Part shown: one piece after another, positions 9,343 through 25,978 of the stretch
How positions within the stretch are numbered: the stretch's first letter is position 1
Layout of the letters: each line of letters opens with the position of its first letter
From: Oscillospiraceae bacterium
GTDB lineage: Bacteria > Bacillota > Clostridia > Oscillospirales > Ruminococcaceae
Direction: 5' to 3'
Length of the DNA stretch: 64,000 nucleotides
Assembly (NCBI GenBank): GCA_017828975.1
Contig: JAGAJN010000034.1
Span: forward strand, 45,033 to 109,032
Notes under the pieces: model-generated
Database searches by the model: none
What the model saw: only the letters and a program-made list of their open reading frames with translations
What the model was told of the DNA's origin: nothing
Translations under genes and position numbers: made by a program

Positions 9343-10227
9343 ATGAAGAAAATAATAGTATTGATACTGTCAGCGGCTCTCCTTTGCTCTTGTTGGAATG
9401 AAAAGTGTCAGCCGGAATCCCCCGCAGAAACTTTAGTATCTACGGAAGCCGCCGTAAGCGAACAAACTAACCTATCCGACGAAAGTAAAATCTCCCAAAA
9501 AGAGGAATTTACATACCCGCCTGTGGAATACACTTTGGAAGATCAGACGGTATTTTACGGCACATTCCCACCCATCAAGAAAATTTTCGAGAATAACGCC
9601 GAAAAGCTTGCAGACGTTCCTCTTTGCGGACAAGCCGTGCTGGACGAGTACATTTCCCCCCGCTCCTATGCTGCCGACCGTGCCGAAGTTCTCCAACAGG
9701 TAAAGGAGCTGTCCGACGAGATATGTGCGGGCTGCGAAACCGATGCAGAGCGTCTTTACGCCATCTGCGACTGGGTCAGCAGGAATATTTACTATGATTT
9801 TGATGCCCGAAACAGCGAGGTCACTGCCGAGGTGATCTGCCTGAAAAATGTTCTGGAAACCAAACGTACCACCTGTGCGGGCTATTCCACCTTTACGGCG
9901 GCTTTGTGCGGTGCGCAGGGGATTGTCTGCGTCGATCTTCGGGGCGGCAGCTCGTCGGAGGGCTGGAAGCGTTCCGAGCTGCCTGACGCACCTATGAACC
10001 ACGAATGGAACGGTGCGGTCATTGACGGGAAATGGGTTTTCTGCGACACCACCTGGGCTTCGCAGAACACTTACGAGAACGGTGCATTTTTCCAAAACGA
10101 ACCGCTGACGCCCTTTTATTACAGTGCGGATTTCGGTCAAATGAGCATCGAGCATCGCATCGACATTGCGGAGTTCAGGGATTTTTACGGTATTTTTGAA
10201 AATAATTCTCCGCAAAATCAAGGATAA
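9343..10227 (+). CDS. Lipoprotein with transglutaminase-like (cysteine protease fold) domain
   Basis: 294-residue exported lipoprotein. The N-terminus is a short type II signal ending in the lipobox LCSC with Cys17 as the lipidated residue, followed by a low-complexity acidic linker. The transglutaminase-like core has the expected triad: Cys178 in TTCAGYS, His220 in NHEWN and Asp235 in FCDTTW. Such domains act as peptidases or on the cell wall; the substrate is unknown. Start chosen at the ATG 9343 with GAAAGG, since this gives the signal peptide; an in-frame ATG at 9250 lies inside the neighbouring gene region. Its 3-prime end overlaps the converging HAD gene by 53 bases. Confidence 0.88.
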   Translation: MKKIIVLILSAALLCSCWNEKCQPESPAETLVSTEAAVSEQTNLSDESKISQKEEFTYPPVEYTLEDQTVFYGTFPPIKKIFENNAEKLADVPLCGQAVLDEYISPRSYAADRAEVLQQVKELSDEICAGCETDAERLYAICDWVSRNIYYDFDARNSEVTAEVICLKNVLETKRTTCAGYSTFTAALCGAQGIVCVDLRGGSSSEGWKRSELPDAPMNHEWNGAVIDGKWVFCDTTWASQNTYENGAFFQNEPLTPFYYSADFGQMSIEHRIDIAEFRDFYGIFENNSPQNQG

Positions 10228-10963
10228 ATTCCGCAAATTTTCCCGTTTCGGCATTTTCACAGACCATTGCGGGAATGTCACTGAGGGCGGCGTTCAGTCC
10301 GTTGTCGGGGACAAGTGCAATGTCCGCCGAAAGGAGCATTGGAATATCAAACTCGCTGTCCCCTGCGGCTATGGTCGTTTCGGGGGACAGCCTTTTTTTC
10401 AGCCGTTCAAGGGCATTTCCCTTGTTAAGTCCCTTTGGAAGAATGTAGACCTTTGAACCGTTTGTCAGTATGTCAACGGTTTGTGCGTCAAGCTGTGAAC
10501 CGAGCAGAGAAACGGTTTCATCGGGCTTATCGGACTTTGTAAAGATAAAGGAATCGTCCACAAATCTGACCTCAAAGGAGCGGTTTTTGTCCGTTTCAAG
10601 GAGATTTTTACCCCGTTCAAGCTCACTTATGGCGGTGTTTATCAGCTGTTCCGATTCCGCTCGCCAAGCCTTGTCGGGGACGCCGTTTATCAGCAGCGTT
10701 CCGCCGTTTGAGGTGACAGCCATGGGCGGTTCATCTCCGAATATGGATATGCGCCGAAACTGCTCCACCGAGCGGGTGGTTATGGGTATGGGAAGTATCC
10801 CCGAGGACAGTCCATTCAGCTTTTCGACCGCTTCGGGTGTCATATAGGACAGTTTTTTCCAAATGCCGTGTATGTTTCCCTCTTCCACGCAGATATGGGA
10901 GCCTTCGGCTTTTTTGTAGCTGTGTATAAGCGTGTTGTCAAGGTCGAGAGCCAGAAGTATCAT
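10175..10963 (-). CDS. HAD-family phosphatase of the Ter-associated pathway
   Basis: 262 residues, Cof/sucrose-phosphatase-like HAD hydrolase. Motif I is DLDNTLIHS (nucleophile and acid aspartates), motif II the TTRS region, motif III the lysine in LPKGLNKG, and motif IV AAGDSEFDIPML. A C2-type cap lies between II and III. It is the last gene of the operon that also encodes an aldolase, an ATP-grasp ligase and phosphoribosyltransferases; in Ter clusters a HAD of this kind is predicted to remove a phosphate from the nucleotide-like product. ATG at 10963 follows AAAGGAG. Confidence 0.88.
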   Translation of the reverse strand: MILLALDLDNTLIHSYKKAEGSHICVEEGNIHGIWKKLSYMTPEAVEKLNGLSSGILPIPITTRSVEQFRRISIFGDEPPMAVTSNGGTLLINGVPDKAWRAESEQLINTAISELERGKNLLETDKNRSFEVRFVDDSFIFTKSDKPDETVSLLGSQLDAQTVDILTNGSKVYILPKGLNKGNALERLKKRLSPETTIAAGDSEFDIPMLLSADIALVPDNGLNAALSDIPAMVCENAETGKFAEFILDFAENYFQKYRKNP

Positions 10964-10976
10964 GGTTAAACTCCTT

Positions 10977-11168
10977 TCATCTGAGAAAATCGGGCAGCAG
11001 GGCAATTATCATTGTCAGCGATATGACAAATATCATCAGAAAAGCATTTGCGGCATATTTGTAACGCTCCTTGCCGCTCTTATTATATGTCCTCCGCAGA
11101 CGGACAGACAGTATCAGGGAAATAAAGCATACGGGTGCGGCGATGATGAAAAACATTCCGTCCTTCAT
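10977..11168 (-). CDS. Small two-helix membrane protein in the Ter biosynthetic operon
   Basis: 63 residues, with hydrophobic segments at about 5-21 and 42-60 joined by a basic loop (RLRRTYNKSGKERYKYAA). The ATG overlaps the stop of the phosphoribosyltransferase gene (TAATG at 11166-11170), which argues for a real, coupled gene. I do not recognise a family. It may anchor or regulate the pathway at the membrane, which is inference from position only. Confidence 0.65.
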   Translation of the reverse strand: MKDGMFFIIAAPVCFISLILSVRLRRTYNKSGKERYKYAANAFLMIFVISLTMIIALLPDFLR

Positions 11169-13378
11169 TACACATCACCGTGGCTTTTTTTACCCAATGT
11201 TCGGATAATTCCGCATGCCTTGTATCGGGTGAGAGGATAGCGCTTTACGGGGACGTTCTTTTCCTCCGCCAGCCTCAGCAGATGGCTGACACAGCTTTCG
11301 TCCTCCAAATTGTCCGCAATGAGCAGACAGTAGGGGACACGCCGCAGCAGAACTCGTGTGGCTTCCCCAAGCCCCGGCTTAACAAGATTGATGTCGTCAA
11401 TGCCAAAGTCGGCGGCGATACGCTTTACCTCGTCAATGCCCGTTGTGTCGGGACGTGCTTCAAGGGGCAGATCGGCGGGAGCAAGCCGCATAGCTGTTTC
11501 TATCTTACTGATATATTCACCGGACAAATCTTCATCTTCCAAATCGGAATGGTAAGCCGCACCGTGGAAGTCCTCATCGCCGATAATGTCGCTGCGGAGA
11601 AATGTTCTGCTCATCAGCCCCGAAACGGTGGAATTCAGAATGGAGCTGGGGATAAGAATGTCCTTGTAGGTGCCGCAAAGCTCCGTGATATTTGCGGGGT
11701 CGGCAAGCACGGCAAGGCTGCATGACACGCCCTTATAATCGGCAAGGGCTTCGGTGAGAGTGCCGAGAATAGCGCCCTTTCCCGTCCAGCCGTCCACGAA
11801 GCATATCTCCTCGGGGCGGTGCTGCGACAGAATGTAGGACATAGCGTTTTTGTCAATGCCAATTCCCCTGATTATGGAAATGGTGTAATGCGCCGCATTC
11901 ACGCCAAAACGGGCTTTCAGGCAGCGTTTCATCAAAATTCCCACAGGTGTTCCCGCACGGGCAAGGGACACAAGGGCGATCTTTCCGTCCGGGTGCGTCT
12001 TACAGAGCCTGTTGCAGACGGAAACTACCGCTTGGGCGGTTTCAAAAGCGCACCGCTCCAGAGCGTCCTTGTATTCCTTCAGATATTTCTCCGAGGGACG
12101 GTATTCCAGCGGGAGCATCTCCGAATAGTGTGCGCCCTGTTCGATACGCCGCTGACGTTCCTCGGCGGGCAGCGGTTCAATAAGTCCCGTTATGTCCTTC
12201 AAAAGAACGGTAACGTCCGACGGGGAATAGGAGCAGGGCATTGCCGCTTTCCAGCTGACGAAAAAGAAGCTGTCCGTTTCGGGAAAAGCGTGAGTCAGCT
12301 GCGCAAAGCCGTCCCTTTTCGGGCTGTCGGTCACGGCGATAACAAGGTCGTATCTATCGGTATTATAAAGGTAGGTAGTTCGGTCTTTATCGTAAAAGCT
12401 TTCAAGGGTCATTCTTGAAAACAGGGGGTAATTCTCTTTGAAATGGGGTTCGATGGGGCTTCTGGTGGTGGAATGGGTGTACACCTCCGCACCATGTTCA
12501 CGCAGCTTATCGGCGGCGTTTATGGCGGGGTACATACATTCCTCCGTGCCTATAACGGCAATCTTTTTCCCCGAAAGCTGAATGTTCTTGCGGCTGATTA
12601 TCCTCAGAAGCTGTTCGGCAAGGCTGTCGCAGGCTTCCGAATATTCGTCCGAAGAAACGCCGCTTCTAGGGTCAAGCATGCCCTTTATTCGGAGATATTC
12701 GCAGTTCGGAGAGGTTTTCCGCTTCGGTATTTCCTTTGGCGGTTCGGGTATCAAACTGTCCCTATGATCGGACATATCTATTTTCATAAGCCAATAGAAA
12801 TCATATCCCGGCTCGGCAAGCTCATTCGTCCGCTCCTCGGACATTCCGTTTAGAATCGAGCAGGCGGAATATGTTATCCTGTTCGGTATCTTCGGGTTGG
12901 CTTTCAGGGCATTTATGAAATTTACAATAGTTTTGCCGGTGGTTATTTCGTCCTCAACGAAGATAACTCTTGTTACGCCGTCAAACAGCCTTGCGGTGCT
13001 TTTGCATTGCAGAGTCTGCTCGGTGGCATGGGAATGTTCCTCGGAAAATTCGGCGGCGTATTCGCAGTTTGTGAGCTGCTCTCTTGTGGTGTGGATATAG
13101 CGTGAGCCGTGAAACGCCCTTGCAACGGCAGCACCCACAGCGGTCGCCGTTTCCGCAAATCCGATAAAGAGGATATTTTCCGCTGCTTCACGGACATTTT
13201 TCCTCACCTCGTCCGCCAGCTCGGAAAACAGCCGCAGGGGAACATCGGGGGAGATGGGAAAATGCTTTCCCTGACACTTATCCACAAGGATAAAGCTCCT
13301 TTTGGCGTTGTTTTCCCGACGTGAAACGCAGGCAAGCTGTTCGGCGGGGAAGGTCGATTTGTTACAGAGAAGCTTCAA
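11168..13378 (-). CDS. Double phosphoribosyltransferase fusion (PRTase-TRSP + PRTase-PELOTA) of the Ter pathway
   Basis: 736-residue protein that joins two enzymes usually separate in Ter clusters. The N-terminal half has the PRPP-binding loop VIFVEDEITTGKT at 138-150, then a TRSP-like domain at about 265-395. A short linker (about 396-430) leads to the second half with the phosphoribosyltransferase motif ICFVDGWTGKGAI at 525-537, the conserved ILNSTVSGLMSRTFL at 580-594, and a PELOTA/L7Ae-like RNA-binding fold at about 650-732. Predicted role: transfer of phosphoribosyl groups in synthesis of a nucleoside-like metabolite. Start is TTG at 13378 with GAGGTG, overlapping the ATP-grasp gene by 17 bases. 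The second-half family is sometimes labelled StiP cysteine protease; the PRTase reading fits the motifs better. Confidence 0.85.
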   Translation of the reverse strand: MKLLCNKSTFPAEQLACVSRRENNAKRSFILVDKCQGKHFPISPDVPLRLFSELADEVRKNVREAAENILFIGFAETATAVGAAVARAFHGSRYIHTTREQLTNCEYAAEFSEEHSHATEQTLQCKSTARLFDGVTRVIFVEDEITTGKTIVNFINALKANPKIPNRITYSACSILNGMSEERTNELAEPGYDFYWLMKIDMSDHRDSLIPEPPKEIPKRKTSPNCEYLRIKGMLDPRSGVSSDEYSEACDSLAEQLLRIISRKNIQLSGKKIAVIGTEECMYPAINAADKLREHGAEVYTHSTTRSPIEPHFKENYPLFSRMTLESFYDKDRTTYLYNTDRYDLVIAVTDSPKRDGFAQLTHAFPETDSFFFVSWKAAMPCSYSPSDVTVLLKDITGLIEPLPAEERQRRIEQGAHYSEMLPLEYRPSEKYLKEYKDALERCAFETAQAVVSVCNRLCKTHPDGKIALVSLARAGTPVGILMKRCLKARFGVNAAHYTISIIRGIGIDKNAMSYILSQHRPEEICFVDGWTGKGAILGTLTEALADYKGVSCSLAVLADPANITELCGTYKDILIPSSILNSTVSGLMSRTFLRSDIIGDEDFHGAAYHSDLEDEDLSGEYISKIETAMRLAPADLPLEARPDTTGIDEVKRIAADFGIDDINLVKPGLGEATRVLLRRVPYCLLIADNLEDESCVSHLLRLAEEKNVPVKRYPLTRYKACGIIRTLGKKSHGDV

Positions 13379-14414
13379 AGCTTGTCACCTCGCTGTCCTC
13401 AGGAAGCTCCAACGGTGTTTCCACATAAGTGACCCTTGACGGAACACGTTTGAGCATCCACTTTTTATCAATGCCAAGCAGCTGATTTACCGCAAGATTT
13501 GGGATATTCACCCCCGCGCCCGTGCAGGAAAGCTGTATTCCACCCGACATTCTGGTGTTCACCTCCAGAAGATAGGGGCTGCCGTTGTGATATTTAAACT
13601 GAATATTGCAGGGAGTTTTCAGTCCCGTATATTCAAAAAATCGTTCGCAAAGGGAGATAATTGAGTGGTCATAGCGAATTTCGGCAATTCGTGAACCCGT
13701 CTTAAACCTCGGAATGATAATGTTTCCGTCGGCGGTCATCAGACAGTCAACACTGACCTCACAGCCGTCCAGATAGGGCATTACGATGAAATTCGGCAGA
13801 CTTTCCCGCTCGGAAAGGGCTTCAACAGCCTGTTTATAGGAAATTTTCATTCCCGGCTGGACAAAAAGCCCGTTGTAACCCGCCATTCTGTCGTCAATAA
13901 CACGAAAGCTGACAGCACCCTCATCGTGGGCAAGCTTTATGCAGGCACGGCAATTGTTGGCGGTTATCTTTTCGTAAGAGTCCTTGAATTCGGCAACATT
14001 TCGGATAACGTATCTTTCGGGAATGACCTCGGGGGCAAACTCGTTGAAAAGTCGGTATGTACAGTCCTTGTCGGACAGATTCATCAGCTTGTTGTAATCA
14101 TAATCCGCCAGCACGGAAACGCCTATCTCCTCAAATTCCGTCACACGTCTGATAATTGCGGTCATTTTTCTTCGGGGGATAAACAGCCTTATTTTATGCT
14201 CCTTGCAGAAGCTCAGGCAGTAGTTTACATATTCGTCGTCATCGGGAATGGACGGTTCCTTGTACCATTCGTCACATGCCAGCTTGATAACGGAATCAAC
14301 ATTCTCGTTGCTGCCAATGACGTAAAAATCTATGGTCGTGTCCAGCTTTATAAGATTGATGATGTGGTATGCGGTGGAGAACCAGTGGTTGAGCCAGATC
14401 CTTACAGTTTTCAT
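13362..14414 (-). CDS. ATP-grasp ligase of the Ter pathway
   Basis: 350 residues. Preserved are the N-terminal pre-ATP-grasp Rossmann-like domain (KTVRIWLNHWFSTAYH), the ATP-grasp strands with MPYLDGCEVSVDCLM, and the metal- and phosphate-binding end LLEVNTRMSGGIQL, in which E and N ligate magnesium. Such enzymes join a carboxylate to an amine through an acyl phosphate. The specific substrate is not known. Neighbours on both sides are other members of the predicted Ter nucleoside-like pathway; the stop overlaps the next gene by 17 bases. ATG at 14414 follows AGAGG. Confidence 0.88.
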   Translation of the reverse strand: MKTVRIWLNHWFSTAYHIINLIKLDTTIDFYVIGSNENVDSVIKLACDEWYKEPSIPDDDEYVNYCLSFCKEHKIRLFIPRRKMTAIIRRVTEFEEIGVSVLADYDYNKLMNLSDKDCTYRLFNEFAPEVIPERYVIRNVAEFKDSYEKITANNCRACIKLAHDEGAVSFRVIDDRMAGYNGLFVQPGMKISYKQAVEALSERESLPNFIVMPYLDGCEVSVDCLMTADGNIIIPRFKTGSRIAEIRYDHSIISLCERFFEYTGLKTPCNIQFKYHNGSPYLLEVNTRMSGGIQLSCTGAGVNIPNLAVNQLLGIDKKWMLKRVPSRVTYVETPLELPEDSEVTSFEASL

Positions 14415-14450
14415 TTTGTACCTCTTTATATAAATCTTGCGGGAATTTTC

Positions 14451-15491
14451 TTATTTTACGCCGTAAATCGATGCCAGAGTAACGGTCTTTCTCGCCCAAT
14501 TTTCGTGGACCTTGACCTCGTTCATACGTCCTCCCGACGGGCTTTTTGCTACTGCAAAGCCTTCGCCGTCGTTCCAGTTGAGTATGCTGAGGGCGTCCTT
14601 GTAATCCTCCTCGGAAACGGTGAGGGATTCGTTGATAACGGGCAGCTGTGTCGGGTGGATAGCGGTTTTTCCGATGAAGCCGTTTAATCTGTCAAGCTCC
14701 AGCTCGGCACGAAGTCCCTTTGCCCACTGTCCGTCGGGGTCGTTTCCGAAATATTCCCAGACAGGCGCAGATACCACATAATCCCGCCCAAAAACATTGA
14801 AAATATCCGCAAGTGTATTTCTCACAACGGTAATATCGTAAATGGTGCGGTCGGCAGGTCTGCGGAAACCGAAGCGGCTGCAAAAATCATTTCCGCCCAC
14901 ACGGATATTCAGCACCAGCTTGGAGATGGTGTCCACGGCGGATTTTATTTCGGTAATTGCCTGCAAACGGCTTTTCAGGTCGATGACCTCGGTGGATTCG
15001 AGGATAGGCATACAGTAAATATTCTGCTTGCCGCTGTTTATCTCCGTCATTACTTCAATGTAAGAAGCGGCGTTGCGGCGGTCGAATTTTGGCAGGATAA
15101 AGCCTGTGAGCAGCTCGTAATCGCATATTTTTTCGTAGATACGCAGCAGTTGTTCGGCGGAACGCACCCTTACAAACATCAGCGGCAGTTCGCTTTTGCG
15201 GATATTTTCGAGGATAAGCTCCCGATAGATGCTTTCAAAGGTGTTATAAAGGCAGTTTTCCGCTTCCTCCACGAAATTGTCCCCGACGCTGTCCTCTAAA
15301 CAGAGGGACACGGAGCGCAGTCCCGCATACTTTTTCGATGTGATAAAGCCCGCAGCCTTGGGGTTCAGGGCAGGGCAGTAGAGCAGTCCGCCGAGGGCAT
15401 ATTGGAGAACGAATTTATCGTTATGCGCCTTGTCGGAACGCTTGGTAAAGCTTGATGATGAGGATATTCTTGCTGTATTTACAGAGTCCAT
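14451..15491 (-). CDS. HpcH/HpaI aldolase / citrate lyase beta-like protein of the Ter pathway
   Basis: 346 residues, a TIM-barrel C-C lyase fold. Seen: RSVSLCLEDSVGDN (metal-binding Glu/Asp region), FVRVRS, the conserved RVGGNDFCSRFGFRRP, and FIGKTAIHPTQLPVIN, the C-terminal signature of the citrate lyase beta family. This family member is the usual companion of ATP-grasp and phosphoribosyltransferase genes in Ter clusters, where it is predicted to make or cleave a carbon unit of the metabolite. No other citrate lyase subunits are nearby, which argues against a citrate fermentation role. ATG follows AAAGGAC. Confidence 0.9.
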   Translation of the reverse strand: MDSVNTARISSSSSFTKRSDKAHNDKFVLQYALGGLLYCPALNPKAAGFITSKKYAGLRSVSLCLEDSVGDNFVEEAENCLYNTFESIYRELILENIRKSELPLMFVRVRSAEQLLRIYEKICDYELLTGFILPKFDRRNAASYIEVMTEINSGKQNIYCMPILESTEVIDLKSRLQAITEIKSAVDTISKLVLNIRVGGNDFCSRFGFRRPADRTIYDITVVRNTLADIFNVFGRDYVVSAPVWEYFGNDPDGQWAKGLRAELELDRLNGFIGKTAIHPTQLPVINESLTVSEEDYKDALSILNWNDGEGFAVAKSPSGGRMNEVKVHENWARKTVTLASIYGVK

Positions 15492-15508
15492 TATTTTGTC
15501 CTTTCAAA

Positions 15509-16771: not shown

Positions 16772-16830
16772 ATTATCTCCCCCTTTCCCGCTATTTTTGA
16801 TACTTTTCACTCGGTATCGCATACATTAAC

Positions 16831-16859
16831 ATTATACCATTTTGTAAAATGAAAATCAA
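16831..16859 (-). promoter_or_regulatory. Promoter of the Ter biosynthetic operon
   Basis: Minus-strand TTGATT (16859-16854), 17-base spacer, TATAAT (16836-16831), about 60 bases before the beta-helix/TerD start. It makes genes 16771 to 10175 a separate unit from the TerD operon upstream. Confidence 0.75.
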
Positions 16860-16881
16860 GGGCATTTTTGGAAATTCTCAC

Positions 16882-16916
16882 AAAAAAGCTCCCCCGATTC
16901 AAAGAAACGGGAGAGC
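16882..16916 (-). terminator. Terminator of the ATPase-TerD operon
   Basis: Minus-strand stem GCTCTCCCG with CGGGGGAGC (one U-G pair), then TTTTTTG; lies 16 bases after the last TerD stop. The stem is broken on the plus strand (C-A mismatch), so it works on the minus strand only. Confidence 0.85.
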
Positions 16917-16931
16917 CGAAAAAAACACGTA

Positions 16932-17516
16932 TTAAACGTTTACGCCGTAAGCCCTGCAAAGAGCCTCCAGACCGCCGCTGTAACCTGCGCCCACGGCGTT
17001 GAACTTCCACTCGCCGTTGTAGCGGTAAAGCTCGCAGACAACCAGAGCGGTTTCAATGGAGAATTCTTCCATAAGGTCATATCTGAGCATTTCCTCGCCG
17101 CTCATATCGTCATCGCTGTTACGCTTGCAGACTCTTACGAAAGCGTTGGAAACCTGTCCGAAATTCTGATGACGTGCAGCTGCTTCGTGGATAGTTACGG
17201 TAATAGCTATCTTTGCGATGTTCTGAGGAAGCTTGTTGAAGTCAATAAGGATAACCTCGTCATCGCCTTCGCCCTCGCCCGTGAGATTATCGCCCGTGTG
17301 AACGACTGCTCCGTCATATCCCGAAAGATTGTTGTAGAAGATGAAGTCCTCGTCCTTTAACACCTTGCCGTTTTCGCCCAGCAGGAATGCACAGGCGTCC
17401 AGGTCGAAATCGTAGCCGCCGTCATAGCTGTTTGTATCCCAGCCAAGACCGATAAGAGCTTTTGTCATTGATTTGTCAAGACTTACTCTCTGTCCCTTTG
17501 AAAGATTTACACCCAT
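16932..17516 (-). CDS. terD: TerD family protein (copy 3 of the operon)
   Basis: 194 residues, a complete calcium-binding TerD/stress domain. N-terminal [12 protein letters not shown], then [27 protein letters not shown], and the calcium loop [15 protein letters not shown], ending [15 protein letters not shown]. TerD proteins bind Ca2+ and support resistance to tellurite, phage and other stress through a membrane-associated complex. Last gene of its operon, 18 bases after the preceding TerD gene and just before a terminator. Confidence 0.95.
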
Positions 17517-17534
17517 TTTAATTCCACCCCTTCA

Positions 17535-18125
17535 TTACATATAGCGCTTAGCAACATCTGAGATGCCGTTGGCGTCGATGCCTTCGCCTACTGCGCTGAA
17601 CTTCCATTCGCCGTTGTATCTGTAAACCTCGCCGAATATCATGGCGGTTTTTCCGCTGTAATTGTCGGTGAGATTGTACTTGCAAAGCTCCTTGTTGGTA
17701 TCTGCGTCAACAATTCTGATAAATGCGTTCTGTATCATTCCGAAATGCTGTGCTCTTTCTCTTGCCTGATAGATCGTTACCGCAACAACGATCTTTTCGC
17801 AGTACTGAGGAACGTCACGCAGATCTATCATGATCTGCTCATCATCGCCGTCGCCTGCGCCTGTCAGGTTGTCGCCCATATGCTGTACGGAACCGCTCTT
17901 GTGCTTCAAATTGTTGTAGAAAACATAGTCGTCCTTGTTTGCAAGCTTGCCGCCTGCGGAAAGGAGAAGTGCGGAAGCGTCACAGTCAATATCCTGGGGC
18001 TTGGGTGCGAAAAGCCCTCTCTTCTGAGCGACTTCGTCCCAGCCAAGACCTACTATAACTCTTTTCAGAGATGAATTTCCTTTTGTAAGGTCAACCTTCT
18101 GACCTTTTTGAAGATTAACAGACAT
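17535..18125 (-). CDS. terD: TerD family protein (copy 2, TerE-like)
   Basis: 196 residues with the same fold: NLQKGQKVDLTKG, a calcium loop [36 protein letters not shown], and EWKFSAVGEGIDANG. It differs from its neighbours by an insert RGLFAPKPQDIDCDASAL after the GWDE motif and a slightly divergent C-terminus. Follows the AIM24-like gene by about 30 bases and has AAAGGAC before the ATG. The three TerD copies probably form mixed complexes; that is inference from their co-occurrence. Confidence 0.94.
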   Translation of the reverse strand: MSVNLQKGQKVDLTKGNSSLKRVIVGLGWDEVAQKRGLFAPKPQDIDCDASALLLSAGGKLANKDDYVFYNNLKHKSGSVQHMGDNLTGAGDGDDEQIMIDLRDVPQYCEKIVVAVTIYQARERAQHFGMIQNAFIRIVDADTNKELCKYNLTDNYSGKTAMIFGEVYRYNGEWKFSAVGEGIDANGISDVAKRYM

Positions 18126-18155
18126 ATTTTACAGTCCTTTCTTTATGGTTATGTA

Positions 18156-18971
18156 TTATGAAACGGTGGAAGTTACGCTGACCGAGCTGATCATGGAATT
18201 ATACACCTTGATGGTGGGAGCAAGCCAGACCTGTCCCGTTCCTCGGTAAACATTCACAAGTCCCTCGCCGCTGGCAGCAGAGCCGATAAGCGTCTTTGCG
18301 GAACGTTCAACGGAGAAGTCAATGCCGCCTGTTCGCAAAACGGCAAAGTTTCCGTCCACCTTTAGCACATCATTGTTCAGCTCGATTATGTCAATTTCCG
18401 ACATGGGAACGGCACATTCGAGAACGGCAAGTCCGGGACCTCTCAGGGAAGTCTGGAAGATACCCTCGCCGCCCAACGCCGCCGAGGAAAGATTTTTCTG
18501 CATAAAGGCACTGACATTTACGCTGCCCTGCGCCGCAAAAAACATTCCCTTGTCAACGATTATCTCTTCTCCCGCCTGAAGCTCAAGGGTGAGAAGGTGC
18601 TTGAAGGTGGGTTCGAGAACGACCATTCCCGTGCCTCTGTATTCGGGCTGTGCAGCAGCTTCGCCCGTTACTGCGCCTGTGAACATTCTGCCGAGGAGAT
18701 TTCCCGGAGTAACGCCCGAAACCATTTCAAGATTTCCTTGGAAATAGCTCATAGCGCCCGGTTCTACCTTAACAGCATCGTTTTCGAGATATATTGCCGC
18801 CTGACGCACACGCATATTCTGCTTTTCCATAAAGTACATTCTCTCCGCAGAATAGGGGTCAATGCCGCCTAACAGCTTCTGATATTCGAGAATGTCAATT
18901 TTCATATTCTTATTGGAGCTGGTGTCTATTATCTTGATATTTTCACGGGTACCCACTGCGTTGTAATTCAT
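18156..18971 (-). CDS. AIM24-family protein
   Basis: 271 residues of the AIM24/TIGR00266-type double beta fold, with the typical KVEPGAMSYFQGNLEM, an EIIVDKGMFFAAQGSVNV segment and a repeated glycine-rich GTGQVWLAPT end. Bacterial members are of unknown biochemical role; several lie beside TerD genes, which suggests a structural or membrane-binding part in the same complex. The ATG at 18971 is preferred: GGGAGG stands nine bases before it. A longer frame opens at 19046 but has no ribosome site and nearly touches the preceding gene. Confidence 0.85.
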   Translation of the reverse strand: MNYNAVGTRENIKIIDTSSNKNMKIDILEYQKLLGGIDPYSAERMYFMEKQNMRVRQAAIYLENDAVKVEPGAMSYFQGNLEMVSGVTPGNLLGRMFTGAVTGEAAAQPEYRGTGMVVLEPTFKHLLTLELQAGEEIIVDKGMFFAAQGSVNVSAFMQKNLSSAALGGEGIFQTSLRGPGLAVLECAVPMSEIDIIELNNDVLKVDGNFAVLRTGGIDFSVERSAKTLIGSAASGEGLVNVYRGTGQVWLAPTIKVYNSMISSVSVTSTVS

Positions 18972-19064
18972 TTGGTGCGTTCCTCCCATCATATTTGCTA
19001 AGGAAACGCCGAACAATATGCCGTTCTCCCTTACGGCGAAAGACATCTTGTCCGGCAGATATTA

Positions 19065-19646
19065 TCAGCCTGCGTTTACGCCGAAGTTCTGGCAGAGTGC
19101 AGCCAGGCCGCCGCTGAATCCGCTGCCGATAGCGTTGAACTTCCACTCGCCGTTATTGCGGTAAAGCTCTGCAACGACAACAGCGGTTTCGATGGAGAAG
19201 TCCTCGCCCAGGTCAAAGCGGAGAAGCTCTTCGCCCGTAGCCTCGTTTACGATTCTGATGAATGCGTTGGAAACCTGACCGAAGTTCTGGCGTCTTGCAT
19301 CTGCGTCGTAAATAGTTACGGTAAAGTCTATCTTAGAGATGTTTGCGGGAACAGCTGCAAGGTCTACCTTGATCTGCTCGTCATCGCCGTCGCCTGCGCC
19401 TGTCAGGTTGTCGCCCAGATGCTCAACAGAGCCGCTTACGTGCTTGAGGTTGCCGTAGAAAACGAAGTCTGCGTCGGAGTTTACCTTGCCCGAATCGCCC
19501 AGCAGGAATGCTGCAGAGTCAAGGTCGAAATCTGCTCCGCCGTCATACTTGTTTGTGTCCCAGCCAAGACCTACGAGTACCTTTGTTAAACCGGGGTTTG
19601 TCTTTGTGAGGTCGATCTTCTGACCCTTCTGTAAACTGATTGCCAT
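19065..19646 (-). CDS. terD: TerD family protein (copy 1)
   Basis: 193 residues, the most canonical of the three: [35 protein letters not shown], calcium loop [53 protein letters not shown]. Directly follows the P-type ATPase gene (about 50 bases) and precedes the AIM24-like gene. AGGAG before the ATG. Confidence 0.96.
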
Positions 19647-19699
19647 AATAAATCTCTCCTATTCATAAATTTTATTTTCAGGACGTTTTCGTCCAACGG

Positions 19700-22411
19700 T
19701 TACTTTTTAACTATGAGCTTTCTGATGAGGTCAACGGGGATAATGGTTATTGCCATTACAATGATAACTGCCCACTGTTTGAGATCAAGAGCTACGCAGT
19801 TCATTACCTTTCCGCCAACGTAGATCATCAGCACCTGAACAACGGTGATAATGCCCAGTATCTTCAAAAATCCAGTGTTTCTGCCGATATTGTCGAAAAG
19901 ATTGAGCTTTTCCGTTCTTGCGTTAAAGGCGTTGAACACGGCTATGAAGATGAACAGTGCGAAATATCCCGAGAAAAGTGCGTCATAGATATGGTCCATT
20001 TCGGGGTGGGGGATATTGATAAGGGTATCGGTGGAAACCTCGGCAAAGAAGTGCTGGAGAGGAGTTGCAAGCAGGAATGCCATACTGAGCAGCAGTGCCC
20101 AAGCAGCACCTGTGAATATCTCCGACCACATATAGCCCGAAACAATCTTTTCGTTTCTCGACTTGGGCTTTTCCTGCATAAATCTGGAAAGAGCAGGCTC
20201 TCCGCCGAATGCCAGAGCAGCAAGTGTGTCCATTACGAGATTTACCCAGAGTATCTGAGTGATGGAAAGCGGGTTATCCATACCGAGGAGCGGGCAGATA
20301 AAGGAAACCGCAACCGCTGCCACGTTAATGGTAAGCTGGAAGATGATGAACTTTCTGATTGAGTTGAAAATTGTACGTCCGTACAGGATAGCCTTGTCGA
20401 TGGAGTTGAAGTTGTCGTCCAGAATAACGATGTCGGACGCTTCCTTTGCGACCTCGGTGCCGCCGCCCATTGCGAAGCCAACGTCTGCCTTTTTCAGAGC
20501 GGGGGAGTCGTTTACGCCGTCGCCTGTCATACCCGCAACGAGGTCAAGCTCCTGTGCGATGCGGACAAGCCTTGACTTGTCGGAGGGAAGTGCTCGGGAA
20601 ATAACTCTCAGGCGGGGGAGAATGCCCTTGATCTCGTCGTCGGACAGTCCCGCAAGCTCGTCGGAGGTAAGCGTAACTGCATCGGGAATGTCGATGATGC
20701 CCGCTTCCTTAGCAATAGCACAAGCAGTGTCCTTTCTGTCGCCCGTTATCATAACGACCTGAACGCCTGCGCTGTGAACCTCCTTGATAGCGGTAACGGA
20801 TTCGGGACGGACTTCATCTCTGATACCGAGAATTCCGACCAAAGTCCAGTCGCCCTCGGGAAGCTTATCGCTTTCGGGGTCTATCTCCTTATCGGAAACA
20901 GCCAGCGCAAGAACACGGATTGCACGTTCCGCCAGCTCGGTCATTTTGCTGTCGATGACCCAGTTGCCGCTAACGGATTCCTTTTCGCCCTTGGAGTTGT
21001 AGAAGCTTGTGCAGCGGGCGGTGATACGCTCGGGTGCGCCCTTGATAAGGGTGAACTTTTTGCCCTGATAGCTTACTGTTGTTGCGGAATATTTGTTGTC
21101 GCTGTTGAAGGGGATATTTGCCACCTTTTCAACGCCCTCGGGGGACTTGCTGCCTATTGCAAAGCTGAGAACGGCACGCTCGGTAGCGTTTCCGCCGATA
21201 GCCCTGCCCTCGTTGATAACGGAGGTGGAGTTGTCGATAATGGACATTGCAAGCATTTCCTGCAGCTTGCCCTCTGTTTCATTTACGGACTTGTATTCTG
21301 TGCCGAAGCCGTCAACAAAGGTAACGACTTCCAGCTGACCTTTTGTAATAGTACCTGTTTTATCCGAGAAGAGGATATTCAGAGAACCTGCTGTTTCGAT
21401 ACCGTTTATCTTGCGGACAAGAACGTTGTCCTTGAGCATCTTGCCCATATTCTGAGCGGAAACGATAGCTATCATCAGCGGCAGACCCTCGGGAACTGCC
21501 ATTACGATGATGATTACCGCAAGGATAACAGCGTCCAGAATGTTTGTGATAAGTGCGGGGAGCAGTACATTTCCCGGCTGACCGAAGAATGCGCCCGCAC
21601 CGCCGGGATATTCGATGAAAATTCTCGAAATAAGCAGAGCAACTGCGATTGCAATACCGCCGATGTAACCGAATTTGGAGATGCCGTTTGCCAGGTCGGA
21701 GAGCTTTACCTTCAGGGGTGAATCTCTCTCGTCGTCCTGCTGAAGCTCAGCGGCGATCTTACCGTATTCGGACTTGTCGCCCACGGTAGTTGCCTTCATT
21801 ACGGCATTTCCGGAACAGACGATAGTTCCTCTGAACACCTTGTATTCGTTGAGAGTGTCCAGAGCCTTGCCCTCTTCCTCAACGTAATCTGCGGGCATAA
21901 CTCGCTTGGTAGCTTCCTTGGATTCGCCGTTCAGAACAGACTGATCGACCTTGATAGTACCGTCTGCAAGCACGCCGTCAGCGGGAATTTTATCGCCCGA
22001 CTGGAGCAGAATGTAGTCGCCACTTACGATGTCGTCAATGGGGATCTCCACGATAGCACCGTCACGGTAGACCTTGCAGAGTATTTTTGAAGCTTCTTCC
22101 TGGAGCTTCTGGAAAGCGTTTTCGTTGTTATACTCGGAGATGGTGGAAACGAAGGTCGCAAGAATTACCGCAAGGGCAATTCCCAGAGGTTCGTACCATT
22201 CAACATCGGTGCTGATAACACCTGTTGCGCCGAGTATGAAAATGACTACATTGATAAGCAGGGCAACCAGCAGGATCTTTATCATCGGGTCCTCAAAATT
22301 GCCTTTCAGCTTATCCCAGAAGGATTCGCCCTTAGTTTCCGAAAGCTTGTTGCTTCCGTTTTTCGCTCGGGACTCCTCGACTTCTGCGGCGGTAAGTCCT
22401 TTAAAATCCAT
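19700..22411 (-). CDS. P-type Ca2+-transporting ATPase (P2-type)
   Basis: 903-residue membrane pump, probably expelling Ca2+ (or Mn2+) from the cytoplasm. Order: N-terminal cytosolic segment, two membrane helices, the actuator domain (VLNGESKEATK, with TGES in the form NGES), helix 4 with VPEGLPLM, the phosphorylation site FSDKTGTITKG, nucleotide-binding domain, MTGDGVNDSPAL hinge, and a C-terminal six-helix bundle with NLVMDTLAALAFGGEPA. The PEGL motif and the helix 6 N-x-x-x-D fit a plasma-membrane-type calcium pump. First gene of the TerD operon; calcium pumps beside calcium-binding TerD proteins are known from Ter clusters. A structured leader precedes it. Confidence 0.94.
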   Translation of the reverse strand: MDFKGLTAAEVEESRAKNGSNKLSETKGESFWDKLKGNFEDPMIKILLVALLINVVIFILGATGVISTDVEWYEPLGIALAVILATFVSTISEYNNENAFQKLQEEASKILCKVYRDGAIVEIPIDDIVSGDYILLQSGDKIPADGVLADGTIKVDQSVLNGESKEATKRVMPADYVEEEGKALDTLNEYKVFRGTIVCSGNAVMKATTVGDKSEYGKIAAELQQDDERDSPLKVKLSDLANGISKFGYIGGIAIAVALLISRIFIEYPGGAGAFFGQPGNVLLPALITNILDAVILAVIIIVMAVPEGLPLMIAIVSAQNMGKMLKDNVLVRKINGIETAGSLNILFSDKTGTITKGQLEVVTFVDGFGTEYKSVNETEGKLQEMLAMSIIDNSTSVINEGRAIGGNATERAVLSFAIGSKSPEGVEKVANIPFNSDNKYSATTVSYQGKKFTLIKGAPERITARCTSFYNSKGEKESVSGNWVIDSKMTELAERAIRVLALAVSDKEIDPESDKLPEGDWTLVGILGIRDEVRPESVTAIKEVHSAGVQVVMITGDRKDTACAIAKEAGIIDIPDAVTLTSDELAGLSDDEIKGILPRLRVISRALPSDKSRLVRIAQELDLVAGMTGDGVNDSPALKKADVGFAMGGGTEVAKEASDIVILDDNFNSIDKAILYGRTIFNSIRKFIIFQLTINVAAVAVSFICPLLGMDNPLSITQILWVNLVMDTLAALAFGGEPALSRFMQEKPKSRNEKIVSGYMWSEIFTGAAWALLLSMAFLLATPLQHFFAEVSTDTLINIPHPEMDHIYDALFSGYFALFIFIAVFNAFNARTEKLNLFDNIGRNTGFLKILGIITVVQVLMIYVGGKVMNCVALDLKQWAVIIVMAITIIPVDLIRKLIVKK

Positions 22412-22432
22412 TTAACAATTCCTCCAATACAG

Positions 22433-22495
22433 CAGATTTGTTTCTTTCGGTATTTTACCGTTAAATATGTAAAAATATTCCGAAAATCAAATCTG
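22433..22495 (-). promoter_or_regulatory. Structured 5-prime leader of the P-type ATPase gene
   Basis: Long stem built of CAGATTTG (22433-22440) with CAAATCTG (22488-22495), TTTCGG (22445-22450) with CCGAAA (22480-22485), and TATTTT (22451-22456) with AAAATA (22472-22477). It lies in the transcribed leader between promoter and ribosome site. Conserved manganese-riboswitch (yybP-ykoY) bases were not seen, so it is either a novel element or a simple stabilising hairpin. Confidence 0.5.
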
Positions 22496-22533
22496 TCTTT
22501 TTAAATCAAGCGTTTTCATTAAGCTTTGACAAT

Positions 22534-22562
22534 ATTATACATCATATAATGCTCAATGTAAA
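22534..22562 (-). promoter_or_regulatory. Promoter of the ATPase-TerD operon
   Basis: Minus-strand TTTACA (22562-22557), 17-base spacer, TATAAT (22539-22534), about 120 bases before the ATPase start. Confidence 0.75.
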
Positions 22563-22617
22563 GCAAAAAGTAAAACTTTCATCAGATTTTCACAATGCTT
22601 TAGAAAGTATAAAGACA

Positions 22618-24102
22618 TTATCTGACCTTCGTTATGGAGATCTCTGCCAGCAGCCCTCTTTCGCCCCGATACATACGAAAAACCGCTCCATCATACAGCT
22701 TTATCGCCTGTCCCGACGGCACGGAATTTCCCTCGGGGGACATAAGCCCGTCGGCGTTTCGGTTGATAAGGAACCATTCTCCGTTGTGGCGGCAGATGTA
22801 TGCTTGGAGCGTCTTGTCCGCTTTTTCATCGGGGAAAACGCTGCTCTGGAAATGCCATTTGAACAGGGGAGTGTTGTTCACAACGTCCACCTCGGCGTAA
22901 TCCCGCCATTGTCCCTCGTGACCTCGTATCTCCTGTTTCAGCTTTAGTCGGACTATTTCCTTTTCGGCAATTCTGTGACCGCAGTATGGACATTTTGTCA
23001 CGGAGCTGTCATAGAGAACGAACCATTTCTGTTCGCAGGACGGGTTTGAGCAATGGTGCAGCAAGTCCCACGTTTTGACAAGACCTCGTTCCCATTCCAT
23101 AGCCGTGGGACGGTACTCGGGATTGTGCAGACCGTCCACAAATGTACGCAGAAACAGCTTTTCCAGAATCGGCCCCAAGTCCTTGATGGTAACGTACAGA
23201 TCTTTTGGACGGTTTGACGTATCATCGGGATTTTCGATAAAAGTCGCCTTAGATCCCAGAGCAAGATAATCGTCATTTTCCGCAGAATCCATATCGTAGA
23301 TCTTCGGTCCTATCAGCGGGTGACGGAGAAAGAGATATTCATAAATCAGCACGCCCAGCGCATGAAGGTCGGTGTAGCTGGAGGGTGAGATTCGGTTGGG
23401 GTCGTTCATATCAAGATTCAGCGACTCCAGAACCTCGGGTGCTATATAGCCTCTCGTTCCCGCAACCTCGGGGGGATAAAGCCCCGGCACCACCAGCGAG
23501 TCGATGTCGATAACAACGCAGTTCCCCGTTTTCGGGTCGATAAGCACGTTATTGTTTGACAGGTCGGAATGTGCCAGCCCCGCCTGATGAAGCCGCCTTA
23601 TGGAACGGGCAAGCAGCAGGGACATCTGCATCATGGACCGCAGATCGCCCAGCTCGTGGGGTGCGAGATAACGCCTGTTTTTCGAGGTGAACCAGTTGCT
23701 TTTCTTGTCCTTGCCCTTTAGATTTATGACGGGTGAGGAGGATTCATCGAAAAAGAAGCTTTTCGGGTATGTGGGGCAGACGATGCCGAATTCGGGGTCC
23801 ACCACAATGCCCGTTGGCCAGCAGAACCGTCCCGCAAAATAGGCGGCGATTCGCTCGTCATTGCCCTTTGCACCGCCCTTTGATTCGGGGAGAGTGGGGT
23901 TATATCGGGAGATTATGGCTTCGATACGGGATTGGATATTGGGGTCGGCGGCGTCCTCGGGGTCGTTGAAAAACTGCACCACATAGGACTTATCGGGGGC
24001 GAAATAGGTGTATTTCATACCGCCCCTCGGTGGATTGTCGGTGATGACGTAAGGTATCCTTTTGCCGCTTGCAAGGGTGGCTTCGGCAAGCTTGTCAGCC
24101 AT
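22618..24102 (-). CDS. Ser/Thr protein kinase of the TerY-P triad, with zinc ribbon and C-terminal FHA-like segment
   Basis: About 494 residues. The eukaryotic-type kinase core shows the catalytic loop HSDLSNNNV, the metal-binding VIDIDS in place of DFG, and GTRGYIAPEVL. A glycine-loop lysine region lies near the N-terminus (GGMKYTYFAPDKSYVVQFF). After the kinase come a four-cysteine zinc ribbon (CSNPSCEQKW, CPYCGH) and a C-terminal part with DGAVFRMYRGERG that may be an FHA or SHS2-like fold. It overlaps the PP2C gene, and kinase, PP2C and vWA together form the TerY-P triad known from Ter systems. ATG 24102 chosen over GTG 24111, whose ribosome site is too close. Confidence 0.9.
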   Translation of the reverse strand: MADKLAEATLASGKRIPYVITDNPPRGGMKYTYFAPDKSYVVQFFNDPEDAADPNIQSRIEAIISRYNPTLPESKGGAKGNDERIAAYFAGRFCWPTGIVVDPEFGIVCPTYPKSFFFDESSSPVINLKGKDKKSNWFTSKNRRYLAPHELGDLRSMMQMSLLLARSIRRLHQAGLAHSDLSNNNVLIDPKTGNCVVIDIDSLVVPGLYPPEVAGTRGYIAPEVLESLNLDMNDPNRISPSSYTDLHALGVLIYEYLFLRHPLIGPKIYDMDSAENDDYLALGSKATFIENPDDTSNRPKDLYVTIKDLGPILEKLFLRTFVDGLHNPEYRPTAMEWERGLVKTWDLLHHCSNPSCEQKWFVLYDSSVTKCPYCGHRIAEKEIVRLKLKQEIRGHEGQWRDYAEVDVVNNTPLFKWHFQSSVFPDEKADKTLQAYICRHNGEWFLINRNADGLMSPEGNSVPSGQAIKLYDGAVFRMYRGERGLLAEISITKVR

Positions 24103-25309
24103 TTGCGTCACCCGCCTTTTCGGGTAATATCACCATAAGAGTCCTGTCGTCAAAGGAACCTCTTTTCAGGTAAACGTCCAGCCAGCGGCAGAGCTTTTCG
24201 GCGGGATTTCCCGAAAGTCCCGACAGGCTTCCTTCGCTTTCGGGCGGGTCGGGGAGATAAGCTTTCATATCCCACAATTTTTCCATTGAAATGCCCGATT
24301 TTTCCGCCGTGCCCTCGGAATATGCAATAGCGTAGGACACGTCCTTGTCGTTGACCCAGCTGTTCGGCTGAATGTCGGGGATTATTTCGGTGGACGGTTT
24401 TCCCGAAGGCTTGGGGATAATGCCGTTCATCATCAGGTCAAGATAGAGATTCAGCATTTTCGGGGAATTGGGGAAATAGTCGTCCGCAACGCCGTCGGAC
24501 ATAAGCATTACCGCCGAACGTTTTGAGCGTCTGAGCTTTGTCCTTGACTGTACGGCGGCGGGGGTGTGCATTTTCGCAGATGTGAGAAACTCCGTTTCCC
24601 CCGAAAAATCGCCGCTGTCGGGAATACCCAGAAGGGTCAGGGCACTGCCGTACGGTTCATCGGTGCTGACGGAGCAAACCATTCCGTCCCCCGCCTGAAT
24701 TGCGATGGACAGCTGCTCGCCGTTGTCCAGCGGTATCACCGAGCAGGTCACCAGAGTGCAGGCAAAATCGGACAGCTTCATTTCGCCGTCTGAGGTAAAT
24801 TCGGGGTTACCCTTACGGTTCTCAAACTCCCGTTCAACGGCTTCGGAAGCGTGTATAAACGCAGTCTGCATGATCTCCGTAAGCTTGGTGCAGGCGGAGA
24901 TGAAGTCGGGGCTGTCGAGGGAAAGGGAGAGCTTTTCGGAAAGTCCGTCGGTCTGTCCCGCAGCGAGAAAATTGTCCCTGACTTCGTTTACAAATGAAGT
25001 GCAGGCTGCCTTTGCGCCTATTCTCGAAAAACGCTTTGAGCCTGCTCCGTCGGAAACTGCCGCAACTATCCAGCCGCCTATTTCGGCAGCTTCAAACCAG
25101 TCGTCGCAGTTGGAACCGTCGTGCTTGTGTTTTTTTCCTCGGACACGGGCGGCGGTAACGGAATAATCACTGTATTTTTCGCATAATTCCTTATATTCGG
25201 GAAACGGCTCGGGTGCTTCGGGGACGGGTGTGTATCTCCACATGGAAGCGGTGTGGGCAGTGACCTCCCCATCGGTAAGGGGGACGTTATTTTCGGTATT
25301 ATCCGACAA
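24095..25309 (-). CDS. PP2C-type Ser/Thr phosphatase of the TerY-P triad
   Basis: About 404 residues. PP2C metal-binding motifs are visible: DDWFEAAEIGGWIVAAVSDG (first aspartate pair), SDGAGSKRFSRIGAKAA, LMSDGVADDYF and the final SFDDRTLMVIL. It should remove phosphates placed by the adjacent kinase, probably on TerY or TerD partners. An internal acidic/proline stretch after residue 290 is outside the core. Start probably TTG at 25309, eight bases after AAGGAG; the GTG at 25318 overlaps that site. Ends within the kinase start. Confidence 0.9.
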   Translation of the reverse strand: MSDNTENNVPLTDGEVTAHTASMWRYTPVPEAPEPFPEYKELCEKYSDYSVTAARVRGKKHKHDGSNCDDWFEAAEIGGWIVAAVSDGAGSKRFSRIGAKAACTSFVNEVRDNFLAAGQTDGLSEKLSLSLDSPDFISACTKLTEIMQTAFIHASEAVEREFENRKGNPEFTSDGEMKLSDFACTLVTCSVIPLDNGEQLSIAIQAGDGMVCSVSTDEPYGSALTLLGIPDSGDFSGETEFLTSAKMHTPAAVQSRTKLRRSKRSAVMLMSDGVADDYFPNSPKMLNLYLDLMMNGIIPKPSGKPSTEIIPDIQPNSWVNDKDVSYAIAYSEGTAEKSGISMEKLWDMKAYLPDPPESEGSLSGLSGNPAEKLCRWLDVYLKRGSFDDRTLMVILPEKAGDANG

Positions 25310-25336
25310 GAATATCACTCCTTATAATAGTATATG

Positions 25337-25978
25337 TTACGGAACGATAACAAAGCCCTGGGGAGGAGGCGGCAGCTCGATATTTGCGCCGGGCTTTGCG
25401 TCCAGGCTCTTGGAGGACATCTTGATGGAGCTGGAAACCCATGTAAAGAACTGCGCCAGATCGCCCGCAGACAGGTTATTCATCATAAGTACGCACTCGG
25501 TCAGCTCCTTTAAAACGGTGGTGTCCGCATATGCGCCCGCTGCACAGGCGATGATGTTTGCGGGGTGGGTCGCCTTCAATTCCTCGGCAGCGGAACGCCA
25601 GTCATCGGTGGGTGCGCCGTCGGTGAGAATGAATACCAGCGGTTTCCAGTCGCCCTTCTGTGTTTCGGTGGACTTTCTGACTTCGTTTCTGATGCAGTCG
25701 GCAAGGAGGGAAAGTGCCGCACCGAAGGCAGTTGCGCCGCCTGCGGAGATCTGCGGCTCTTTAAACAGCATAAGCTCGGTCAGGGGAGTGACCTGCCTTG
25801 CCTGAGAGTTAAAGGTAATTACGGAAAGATATGCTGTTTCCAGCGCCTGAGGGTCGCCCCGAAGCTCGGAAATAAGGGCTTTCACGCCCTGCTTGACCGC
25901 TTCAATGGGGTCGCCCGACATGGAGCCTGAGGTATCGAGAAGCAGATATACGGGAAGTCGTCTTGTAAAATCTGACAT
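25337..25978 (-). CDS. terY: TerY-like vWA domain protein
   Basis: 213 residues, a single von Willebrand A domain with a full MIDAS: LLLDTSGSMSG, the threonine in GGATAFG, and FILTDGAPTDD. It ends in a proline-rich tail (PPPPQGF). In Ter systems TerY binds metal through the MIDAS and acts as scaffold or switch for the kinase and phosphatase encoded downstream. First gene of the triad operon with its own perfect promoter. ATG 25978 chosen, ten bases after AAAGGA; an upstream TTG in frame is too close to it. Confidence 0.93.
   Translation of the reverse strand: MSDFTRRLPVYLLLDTSGSMSGDPIEAVKQGVKALISELRGDPQALETAYLSVITFNSQARQVTPLTELMLFKEPQISAGGATAFGAALSLLADCIRNEVRKSTETQKGDWKPLVFILTDGAPTDDWRSAAEELKATHPANIIACAAGAYADTTVLKELTECVLMMNNLSAGDLAQFFTWVSSSIKMSSKSLDAKPGANIELPPPPQGFVIVP

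Follow-up and report, generated by a model that had tools for sequence, protein, structure and literature searches.

The 64,000-nucleotide stretch analysed here, hereafter the window (contig JAGAJN010000034.1 of the Oscillospiraceae bacterium assembly GCA_017828975.1, forward-strand positions 45,033 to 109,032), carries a Ter gene run in which a signalling triad of a TerY-like VWA protein, a PP2C-type phosphatase and a Ser/Thr-type kinase is followed by a PMCA-type Ca2+ P-type ATPase, stand-alone TerD proteins, a TerD protein with an N-terminal beta-helix (BH-TerD) and a cluster of metabolite genes. The order TerY-PP2C-kinase-pump recurs in dozens of species, which bears out an earlier note on this DNA in its expectation that the locus matches predicted Ter systems and pairs the triad with a calcium pump and TerD. 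We tentatively propose, with confidence a little short of even, that the triad acts as a TerY-P phosphorylation switch which is coupled to calcium handling and has BH-TerD for its adaptor. A related proposal, which we hold with rather more reserve, is that the P-type ATPase would serve the TerY-PP2C-kinase triad as a signalling partner as well as a pump, and that in one Oscillospiraceae lineage it would have become a pseudoenzyme receptor acting via BH-TerD without calcium-binding TerD; if true, an ion pump would have given rise to a membrane receptor in bacteria.

Results

The triad, pump and BH-TerD in related loci

To place the window among its relatives we scanned named genomes with the kinase alignment and kept the best 80 of 135 confirmed loci, a sample picked by the kinase in which BH-TerD or pump loci devoid of it cannot appear. 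TerY is present in 75 and PP2C in 78 of these 80 loci, the exceptions starting at contig ends, and BH-TerD in 57 of the 66 that are readable downstream (not in 9). Nearly all come from uncultured Oscillospiraceae, Ruminococcus, Oscillibacter or Clostridia assemblies, many of them from animal gut by title; one named strain, Anaerobacterium chartisolvens DSM 27016 (L078), holds the triad, an intact pump, TerDs, AIM24, BH-TerD and metabolite genes. In draws of genomes strong kinase matches (E <1e-100) were obtained in 6/61 family genomes and 6/398 phylum genomes (11/61 and 28, respectively, at E 1e-3). Among 341 class genomes the BH-TerD N-terminus matched a single one, that of the window itself, and profile matches covering the beta-helix part occur in 5/61 family genomes, all within the six with strong kinases and one of them a contig-end fragment. 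In two triad loci, L079 and L082, no pump, TerD or BH-TerD was found in about 10 kb read downstream of the triad, and in L044 a 583-aa open reading frame (ORF) that by eye resembles a secreted glycosidase separates PP2C from the kinase (L044:14178-15929).

The pump is intact in 48 of the 80 kinase loci, degenerate in 21, cut in 5 and not found in 6, of which L080 and L106 stop no more than 410 nt past the kinase. All 21 degenerate ATPases (675-715 aa, with four to six hydrophobic segments in a simple scan) have lost M7-M10, the Glu of TGES and the first Asp of GDGVND; the phosphorylated Asp is replaced in 12 (8 Glu, 4 Gly) and kept in 9. The same Glu and both Asp residues are retained in 49 intact pumps. 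E1-E2_ATPase (Pfam) matches all five degenerate proteins tested, three above cut-off, and a 231-aa ATPase fragment in L072 likewise lacks TGES. By their residues the degenerate proteins thus look catalytically dead, and their substitution patterns indicate that they evolve fast and are nonetheless constrained and maintained: ratios of nonsynonymous to synonymous substitution (dN/dS) are 0.09-0.34 (14 pairs) for degenerate ATPases, 0.02-0.08 (5 pairs) for intact pumps and 0.02-0.09 (19 pairs) for kinases, where several dS values exceed 1 and the low-dS pairs agree at 0.13-0.18.

The two pump states keep different company. Every degenerate-pump locus has BH-TerD (21/21) and none has stand-alone TerD or metabolite genes (0/21 each, 18 of the 21 being readable at least 1,000 nt further downstream); among the 41 readable intact-pump loci, stand-alone TerD is found in 40, BH-TerD in 35 and metabolite genes in 17. 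A dead-pump genome searched in full (G474) has no stand-alone TerD anywhere. In the kinase tree one group of 25 rows holds all the degenerate-pump loci; its other members are L077, which has an intact pump and no TerD, L079, which has no pump, and the cut loci L072 and L106. The window's genus branches off immediately outside this group. We dropped Fisher's test of dead pump against TerD loss as evidence: with the degenerate pumps coming from a single lineage, its value does not speak for repeated coupling. At least one further Cation_ATPase_C protein is encoded outside the locus in each of seven genomes tested.

The kinase and BH-TerD

The window shows the components by which TerY-P triads are recognised, namely a VWA protein with metal-ion-dependent adhesion site (MIDAS) motifs, a neighbouring PP2C and a putative Ser/Thr kinase with a C-terminal zinc ribbon, the latter made of four cysteines (C354, C359, C374 and C377). 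The kinase carries the motifs HSDLSNNN, IDID and APE, its AlphaFold2 model (predicted local distance difference test, pLDDT, 91.7) has kinases as Foldseek matches, and Lys33, Gln46, His181, Asp183, Asn188, Asp202 and the four zinc-ribbon cysteines are invariant in 55 aligned kinases. In the model, strand beta3 spans residues 43-48, so that Gln46 occupies the usual kinase lysine position, and Lys33 at the start of beta2 may stand in for the beta3 lysine. Such a lysine on beta2 instead of beta3 is a feature of WNK kinases. Two distant family kinases adjoining TerY-like genes retain the usual ALKW. The beta-rich C-terminus is possibly FHA-like, its matches to FHA being weak (2/29 rows, best E 0.024, and a single PDB match at E 0.41).

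BH-TerD, which the earlier note's count of three TerD proteins had missed, is a fourth TerD protein (16771-15509) and opens the third unit of the locus. Its C-terminus matches Pfam TerD at 2e-27 and in the AlphaFold2 model superimposes on 3ibz with a Foldseek TMt of 0.73; mean pLDDT is 89.9, and a predicted TM-score (pTM) of 0.55 leaves the placement of its domains open. The N-terminus matches the beta-helix protein NosD weakly (NCBIfam 2.7e-7, far below cut-off; PDB 7o0y, profile E 2.5e-4). The GDN calcium loop separates the two kinds of TerD: in 110 stand-alone proteins G, D and N are conserved at 99%, 99% and 90%, and in 62 BH-TerDs at 0%. A longer ORF beginning at the first ATG (16822-15509) was rejected, since that ATG lies just 8 nt past the -10 box and a ribosome site precedes the start at 16771. 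Neither the fusion of a beta-helix with TerD nor a degenerate P-type ATPase at a Ter locus is described in any paper among the matches listed (for example, the best 10 of 517).

Metabolite genes and order-level relatives

Behind BH-TerD the window clusters the lyase, ATP-grasp, PRTase, StiP, PELOTA and HAD genes of the Ter metabolite pathway (Pfam). What the earlier note read as two phosphoribosyltransferases are domains of one 736-aa ORF (Pfam), the second of which, StiP, Pfam labels a "cysteine protease"; a 63-aa ORF, apparently for a membrane protein and 86% identical in the genus mate, had also been overlooked. The PRTase_2-TRSP/StiP-PELOTA fusion recurs in the genus mate, and PRTase_2 and StiP are on separate genes in 15/15 of the 80 triad loci holding both, seven of these StiP genes being cut by the locus end, and also in G478.

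Metabolite genes occur in 17 of the 80 triad loci. All 17 hold PRTase_2, whereas 15 have the lyase, 15 StiP, 14 AIM24, 6 HAD and 2 ATP-grasp, numbers to be read with the fact that many loci end before StiP or HAD and that the profile perhaps under-calls ATP-grasp. No metabolite gene turned up in 37 BH-TerD loci where at least 1,000 nt can be read past the last annotated gene; the pump is degenerate in 18 of these and intact in another 18. On a quick kinase tree the metabolite-gene state changes at least five times, that of BH-TerD five. BH-TerD is the bridge between switch and biosynthesis, because it lies upstream in all 17 metabolite loci and, in the 14 where the two genes are neighbours, the lyase overlaps or abuts it, with a median spacing of -7.5 nt. 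The claim that the layout ties together switch, calcium unit and biosynthesis therefore holds for the triad with pump and TerD, and for biosynthesis only in part, given the 17/80 loci, the repeated state changes and the triad-free loci described next.

In a draw of 147 genomes from the order, StiP was detected in 7, lyase in 9 (one weak) and TerD in 10. TerD stands without StiP or lyase in G012 and G138; three TerD genes, Ca2+-ATPase, HAD, lyase, PRTase_2 and StiP are all present in the fetched loci of G085, G139, G110, G124, G092 and G023, and G084 has a similar set spread over two contigs in which StiP was not seen. The fetched stretches of these loci, which come from other families of the order, gave no match at E 1e-3 to TerY, PP2C, the kinase or the BH N-terminus, and their additional genes resemble TelA and YceG (confirmed by Pfam in L024, by eye in L019, L025 and L029). 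With metabolite genes present and no triad found in the stretches read, the metabolite module also occurs under another controller. A TerF-type protein (TerD plus a vWA-TerF-like domain) closes such loci at L025:5409-6749 (Pfam) and L026:5024-6364.

Arrangement of the locus

The genes lie contiguously on the minus strand from 25978 to 10175, in the order TerY, PP2C, kinase, Ca2+-ATPase, TerD, AIM24, TerD, TerD, BH-TerD, lyase, ATP-grasp, PRTase_2/TRSP/StiP/PELOTA, 63-aa ORF and HAD (Table 1); the genes listed in the earlier note are present, and every one of them exceeds the cut-off of its Pfam family. Among them are TerD proteins with the calcium loop, by which the locus counts as a Ter system. 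Linkage to TelA is not known to be required for such membership. The description of the system as complete went too far all the same: TelA had no match on the window's contig (C24), the TelA matches of this genome being on contigs C29 and C39, and in order-level relatives it sits beside TerD.

Table 1. Features of the Ter locus, in window coordinates
Feature	Position	Strand	Basis
Promoter-like site, triad	26046..26074	-	TTGACA-17-TATAAT, 12/12
TerY-like VWA protein	25337..25978	-	Pfam VWA 7e-15; MIDAS motifs DTSGS, TDGAP present
PP2C-type protein phosphatase	24095..25318	-	Pfam PP2C_2 1.4e-28; DGAG, SDG, DDRT present
Ser/Thr-type kinase, zinc ribbon, beta-rich C-terminus	22618..24111	-	Pfam Pkinase 3.9e-11
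Promoter-like site, pump unit	22534..22562	-	TTTACA-17-TATAAT, 11/12
PMCA-type Ca2+ P-type ATPase	19700..22411	-	TIGR01517 604 bits vs cut-off 507; checked catalytic motifs intact
TerD with calcium loop	19065..19646	-	Pfam TerD 1.3e-87; PDB 2kxt 2.2e-73
AIM24 protein	18156..19046	-	Pfam AIM24 8.1e-41
TerD	17535..18125	-	Pfam TerD 5.3e-78
TerD	16932..17516	-	Pfam TerD 4.2e-77
Intrinsic terminator-like stem and T run	16888..16908	-	Stem search and genus-mate comparison
Promoter-like site, third unit	16831..16859	-	TTGATT-17-TATAAT, 10/12
BH-TerD, 420 aa	15509..16771	-	Beta-helix ~1-112, Ig/PapD-like ~113-210, TerD domain ~249-420 without calcium loop
C-C bond lyase, TIM barrel	14451..15491	-	Pfam 5.5e-102; weak RipC match 9.5e-9, below cut-off
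ATPgrasp_Ter	13362..14414	-	Pfam 1.4e-35
PRTase_2, TRSP, StiP and PELOTA, one 736-aa polypeptide	11168..13378	-	Pfam
63-aa membrane ORF	10977..11168	-	Two helices apparent, read by eye; between 736-aa ORF and HAD
HAD phosphatase, Hydrolase_3/S6PP-like	10175..10963	-	Pfam Hydrolase_3 1.4e-10

The putative promoters predicted earlier at 26074, 22562 and 16859 are the top three minus-strand promoter matches, and none of their -35/-10 pairs differs in the genus mate (L056; G532 as L051/L052). Over both strands 27 promoter-like sites compare with 19.3 +/- 4.6 in shuffles, so modest an excess that the number of sites says little by itself. The terminator, placed earlier at 16916, corresponds to a stem at 16908-16888 in which both sides are altered in the genus mate and pairing is kept. 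The predicted division into three operons, each with a promoter-like site, does not generalise: the kinase-pump gap is 206 nt here and has a median of 49.5 nt over 74 pairs (window included; at least 150 nt in 10/74), a tight spacing elsewhere that makes three units with their own promoters a local arrangement.

At the pump promoter and just behind it, 71 consecutive nt (22493-22563) are invariant between genus mates. Exceptional conservation of this DNA was nevertheless dropped as a candidate, since a longer invariant run of 88 nt lies at the pump start region and the shorter one, being weak evidence, may mean little. A riboswitch in the pump leader was rejected, as a search of 9000-29000 gave nothing in Rfam at gathering score. 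Diverging from the triad promoter are a DUF815 AAA protein (26270-27469, plus strand) and a small RelA/SpoT-type, YjbM-like alarmone synthetase (27547-28296, plus strand; 2.1e-52, below the model cut-off). We rejected both as parts of the system, as they lie 2.7 kb off TerY in the genus mate L056; DUF815 adjoins TerY in L072 too.

Discussion

The co-occurrence described above suggests that the core of the system consists of the triad, the pump and BH-TerD, with TerD arrays and metabolite genes layered on top. In the mechanism that we propose, the ATPase at the membrane and the Ca2+-binding stand-alone TerDs would form a calcium-handling unit, Ca2+ being the presumed ion from the pump's family and TerD homology, and BH-TerD, its calcium loop lost, would serve as adaptor. 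The TerDs and the VWA domain would detect increased cytosolic Ca2+ or some related stress, whether from divalent cations or on the envelope; kinase and phosphatase would then set the phosphorylation of a partner in the complex, most likely BH-TerD or the pump, and thereby adjust export and, where present, the downstream enzymes, so that the PRTase/StiP/PELOTA/HAD, lyase and ATP-grasp genes encoded right behind BH-TerD would be an optional output. The sequences themselves show gene content and order, co-occurrence, the presence or loss of motifs, and selection; complex formation, the substrates including the phosphorylated partner, the signal and the product are conjectural. Because the sister lineage keeps the triad and BH-TerD with its pump apparently dead and its TerDs gone, the ATPase-derived protein probably also acts for the switch as receptor or scaffold.

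Several observations weigh against this proposal. The usual beta3 lysine is missing, so that kinase activity is predicted and unproven, and we infer phosphorylation, Ca2+ transport and binding among these proteins from their sequences. The sixth genome with a strong kinase match (G527) shows no TerY, PP2C or pump next to its kinase; in L079, L082 and L126 neither pump nor BH-TerD was found beside the triad; six of the 41 readable intact-pump loci lack BH-TerD; and L115 runs TerY-PP2C-kinase-BH-TerD and then YceG and TelA (L115:12734-16093), with no pump or stand-alone TerD found, and is a bridge to the TelA-YceG loci. L077 combines an intact pump with no TerD, its genome (G492) having no stand-alone TerD anywhere, which suggests, without proving, that TerD loss preceded pump decay. 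The association of dead pump with TerD loss is that of one lineage and not a repeated coupling: a single dead-pump clade is not rejected (p-AU, approximately unbiased test, 0.262), TerD presence changes once and pump state at least twice on the quick kinase tree, and an independent-pairs test of dead pump against TerD loss, with one or two pairs, gives no signal.

The same data bear on simpler explanations. Plain cation detoxification, in which Ca2+ (or Mn2+ or another ion) is removed by the pump and buffered by the TerDs and the triad only regulates expression or pump activity with no signalling complex, would account for the intact PMCA motifs of the window's pump and for stand-alone TerD in 40 of the 41 readable intact-pump loci; it is hard to square with 21 loci whose ATPase should be incapable of pumping and which nonetheless retain it together with the kinase and BH-TerD, or with the further Cation_ATPase_C proteins encoded beyond the locus in all seven genomes tested, and we consider it unlikely, if the most serious of the alternatives. 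That the metabolite genes are the point of the system, a nucleoside-like compound being the main product and the other units controlling its synthesis, has in its favour that Pfam ties the lyase, ATP-grasp and PRTase families to Ter operons, that a HAD gene accompanies them and that the lyase overlaps or abuts BH-TerD. Against it stand the scarcity of these genes, confined to 17/80 triad loci and missing from the 37 BH-TerD loci readable further, and their uneven representation within the 17 (ATP-grasp 2, perhaps under-called; lyase 15), which together make it a distinctly improbable account.

Anti-phage defence, with a TerY-P-like module sensing infection, possibly via cation flux, and the metabolite enzymes as effector, we rate as improbable too, though marginally less so. 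It draws on two publications, one in which TerY-P triads occur alongside defence systems and variants with an OB fold act against phages (PMC11090510) and one reporting TerD and Ca2+ P-type ATPases in huge gut phages (PMC12363816). PADLOC 2.0.0, however, returned no match named TerY-P, with a TerY-P model's presence in its library not checked, gave none of any kind for TerY and PP2C, and matched the kinase to weak generic kinase models; there is no nuclease among the Pfam matches of the gene run, and none of 200 pattern matches to the kinase was confirmed on viral contigs. Finally, the patchiness of Ter genes, with TerD in 10/147 genomes of the order draw, might let unrelated genes lie side by side by accident, an idea that the identical order across dozens of species makes scarcely credible.

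A phosphorylation switch coupled to calcium handling through BH-TerD is thus the reading we take forward. The function of Ter genes is a long-standing open question, and the modules separate naturally among related species, which makes signalling, transport and biosynthesis separately testable; a P-type ATPase that is dead yet maintained next to a kinase-phosphatase pair would be unusual in itself.

Comparison with known systems

As described in PMC11090510, the TerY-P triad of Anantharaman et al. 2012 consists of consecutive genes for a TerY-like VWA protein, a PP2C and a Ser/Thr kinase with a C-terminal zinc ribbon, and the window matches it in all three. It differs in the kinase, which adds a beta-rich C-terminus and has Gln at the beta3 lysine position, and in the standing partners, which are a Ca2+ P-type ATPase and BH-TerD here and restriction or DNA-processing genes there. 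Every domain of the Ter biosynthetic module (ATPgrasp_Ter, C-C_Bond_Lyase, PRTase_2, TRSP, StiP and PELOTA_1) is present and contiguous in the window, whereas the fusion of PRTase_2-TRSP with StiP-PELOTA is seen in the window and its genus mate, and ATP-grasp was found in 2 of the 17 triad loci with metabolite genes. With the Firmicute TelA-YceG-TerD loci, which at the order level we take to resemble the yce genes of Bacillus, the window shares a TerD array, Ca2+-ATPase, HAD, lyase, PRTase_2 and StiP near each other; those loci have TelA and YceG by TerD, and the TerY triad and the BH N-terminus were not found in them. Compared with TerD of Klebsiella (2kxt/2kxv) and Streptomyces (3ibz), the C-terminus of BH-TerD has the same fold and the stand-alone TerDs retain the calcium loop, whereas BH-TerD lacks it and adds beta-helix and Ig-like domains. 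Relative to PMCA-type Ca2+ P-type ATPases the window's pump is intact, in contrast to the sister-lineage homologues, which are truncated and without catalytic residues. The locus is, in sum, a variant of the known Ter and TerY-P systems; what surprises is BH-TerD and, among the relatives, the lineage with the dead pump.

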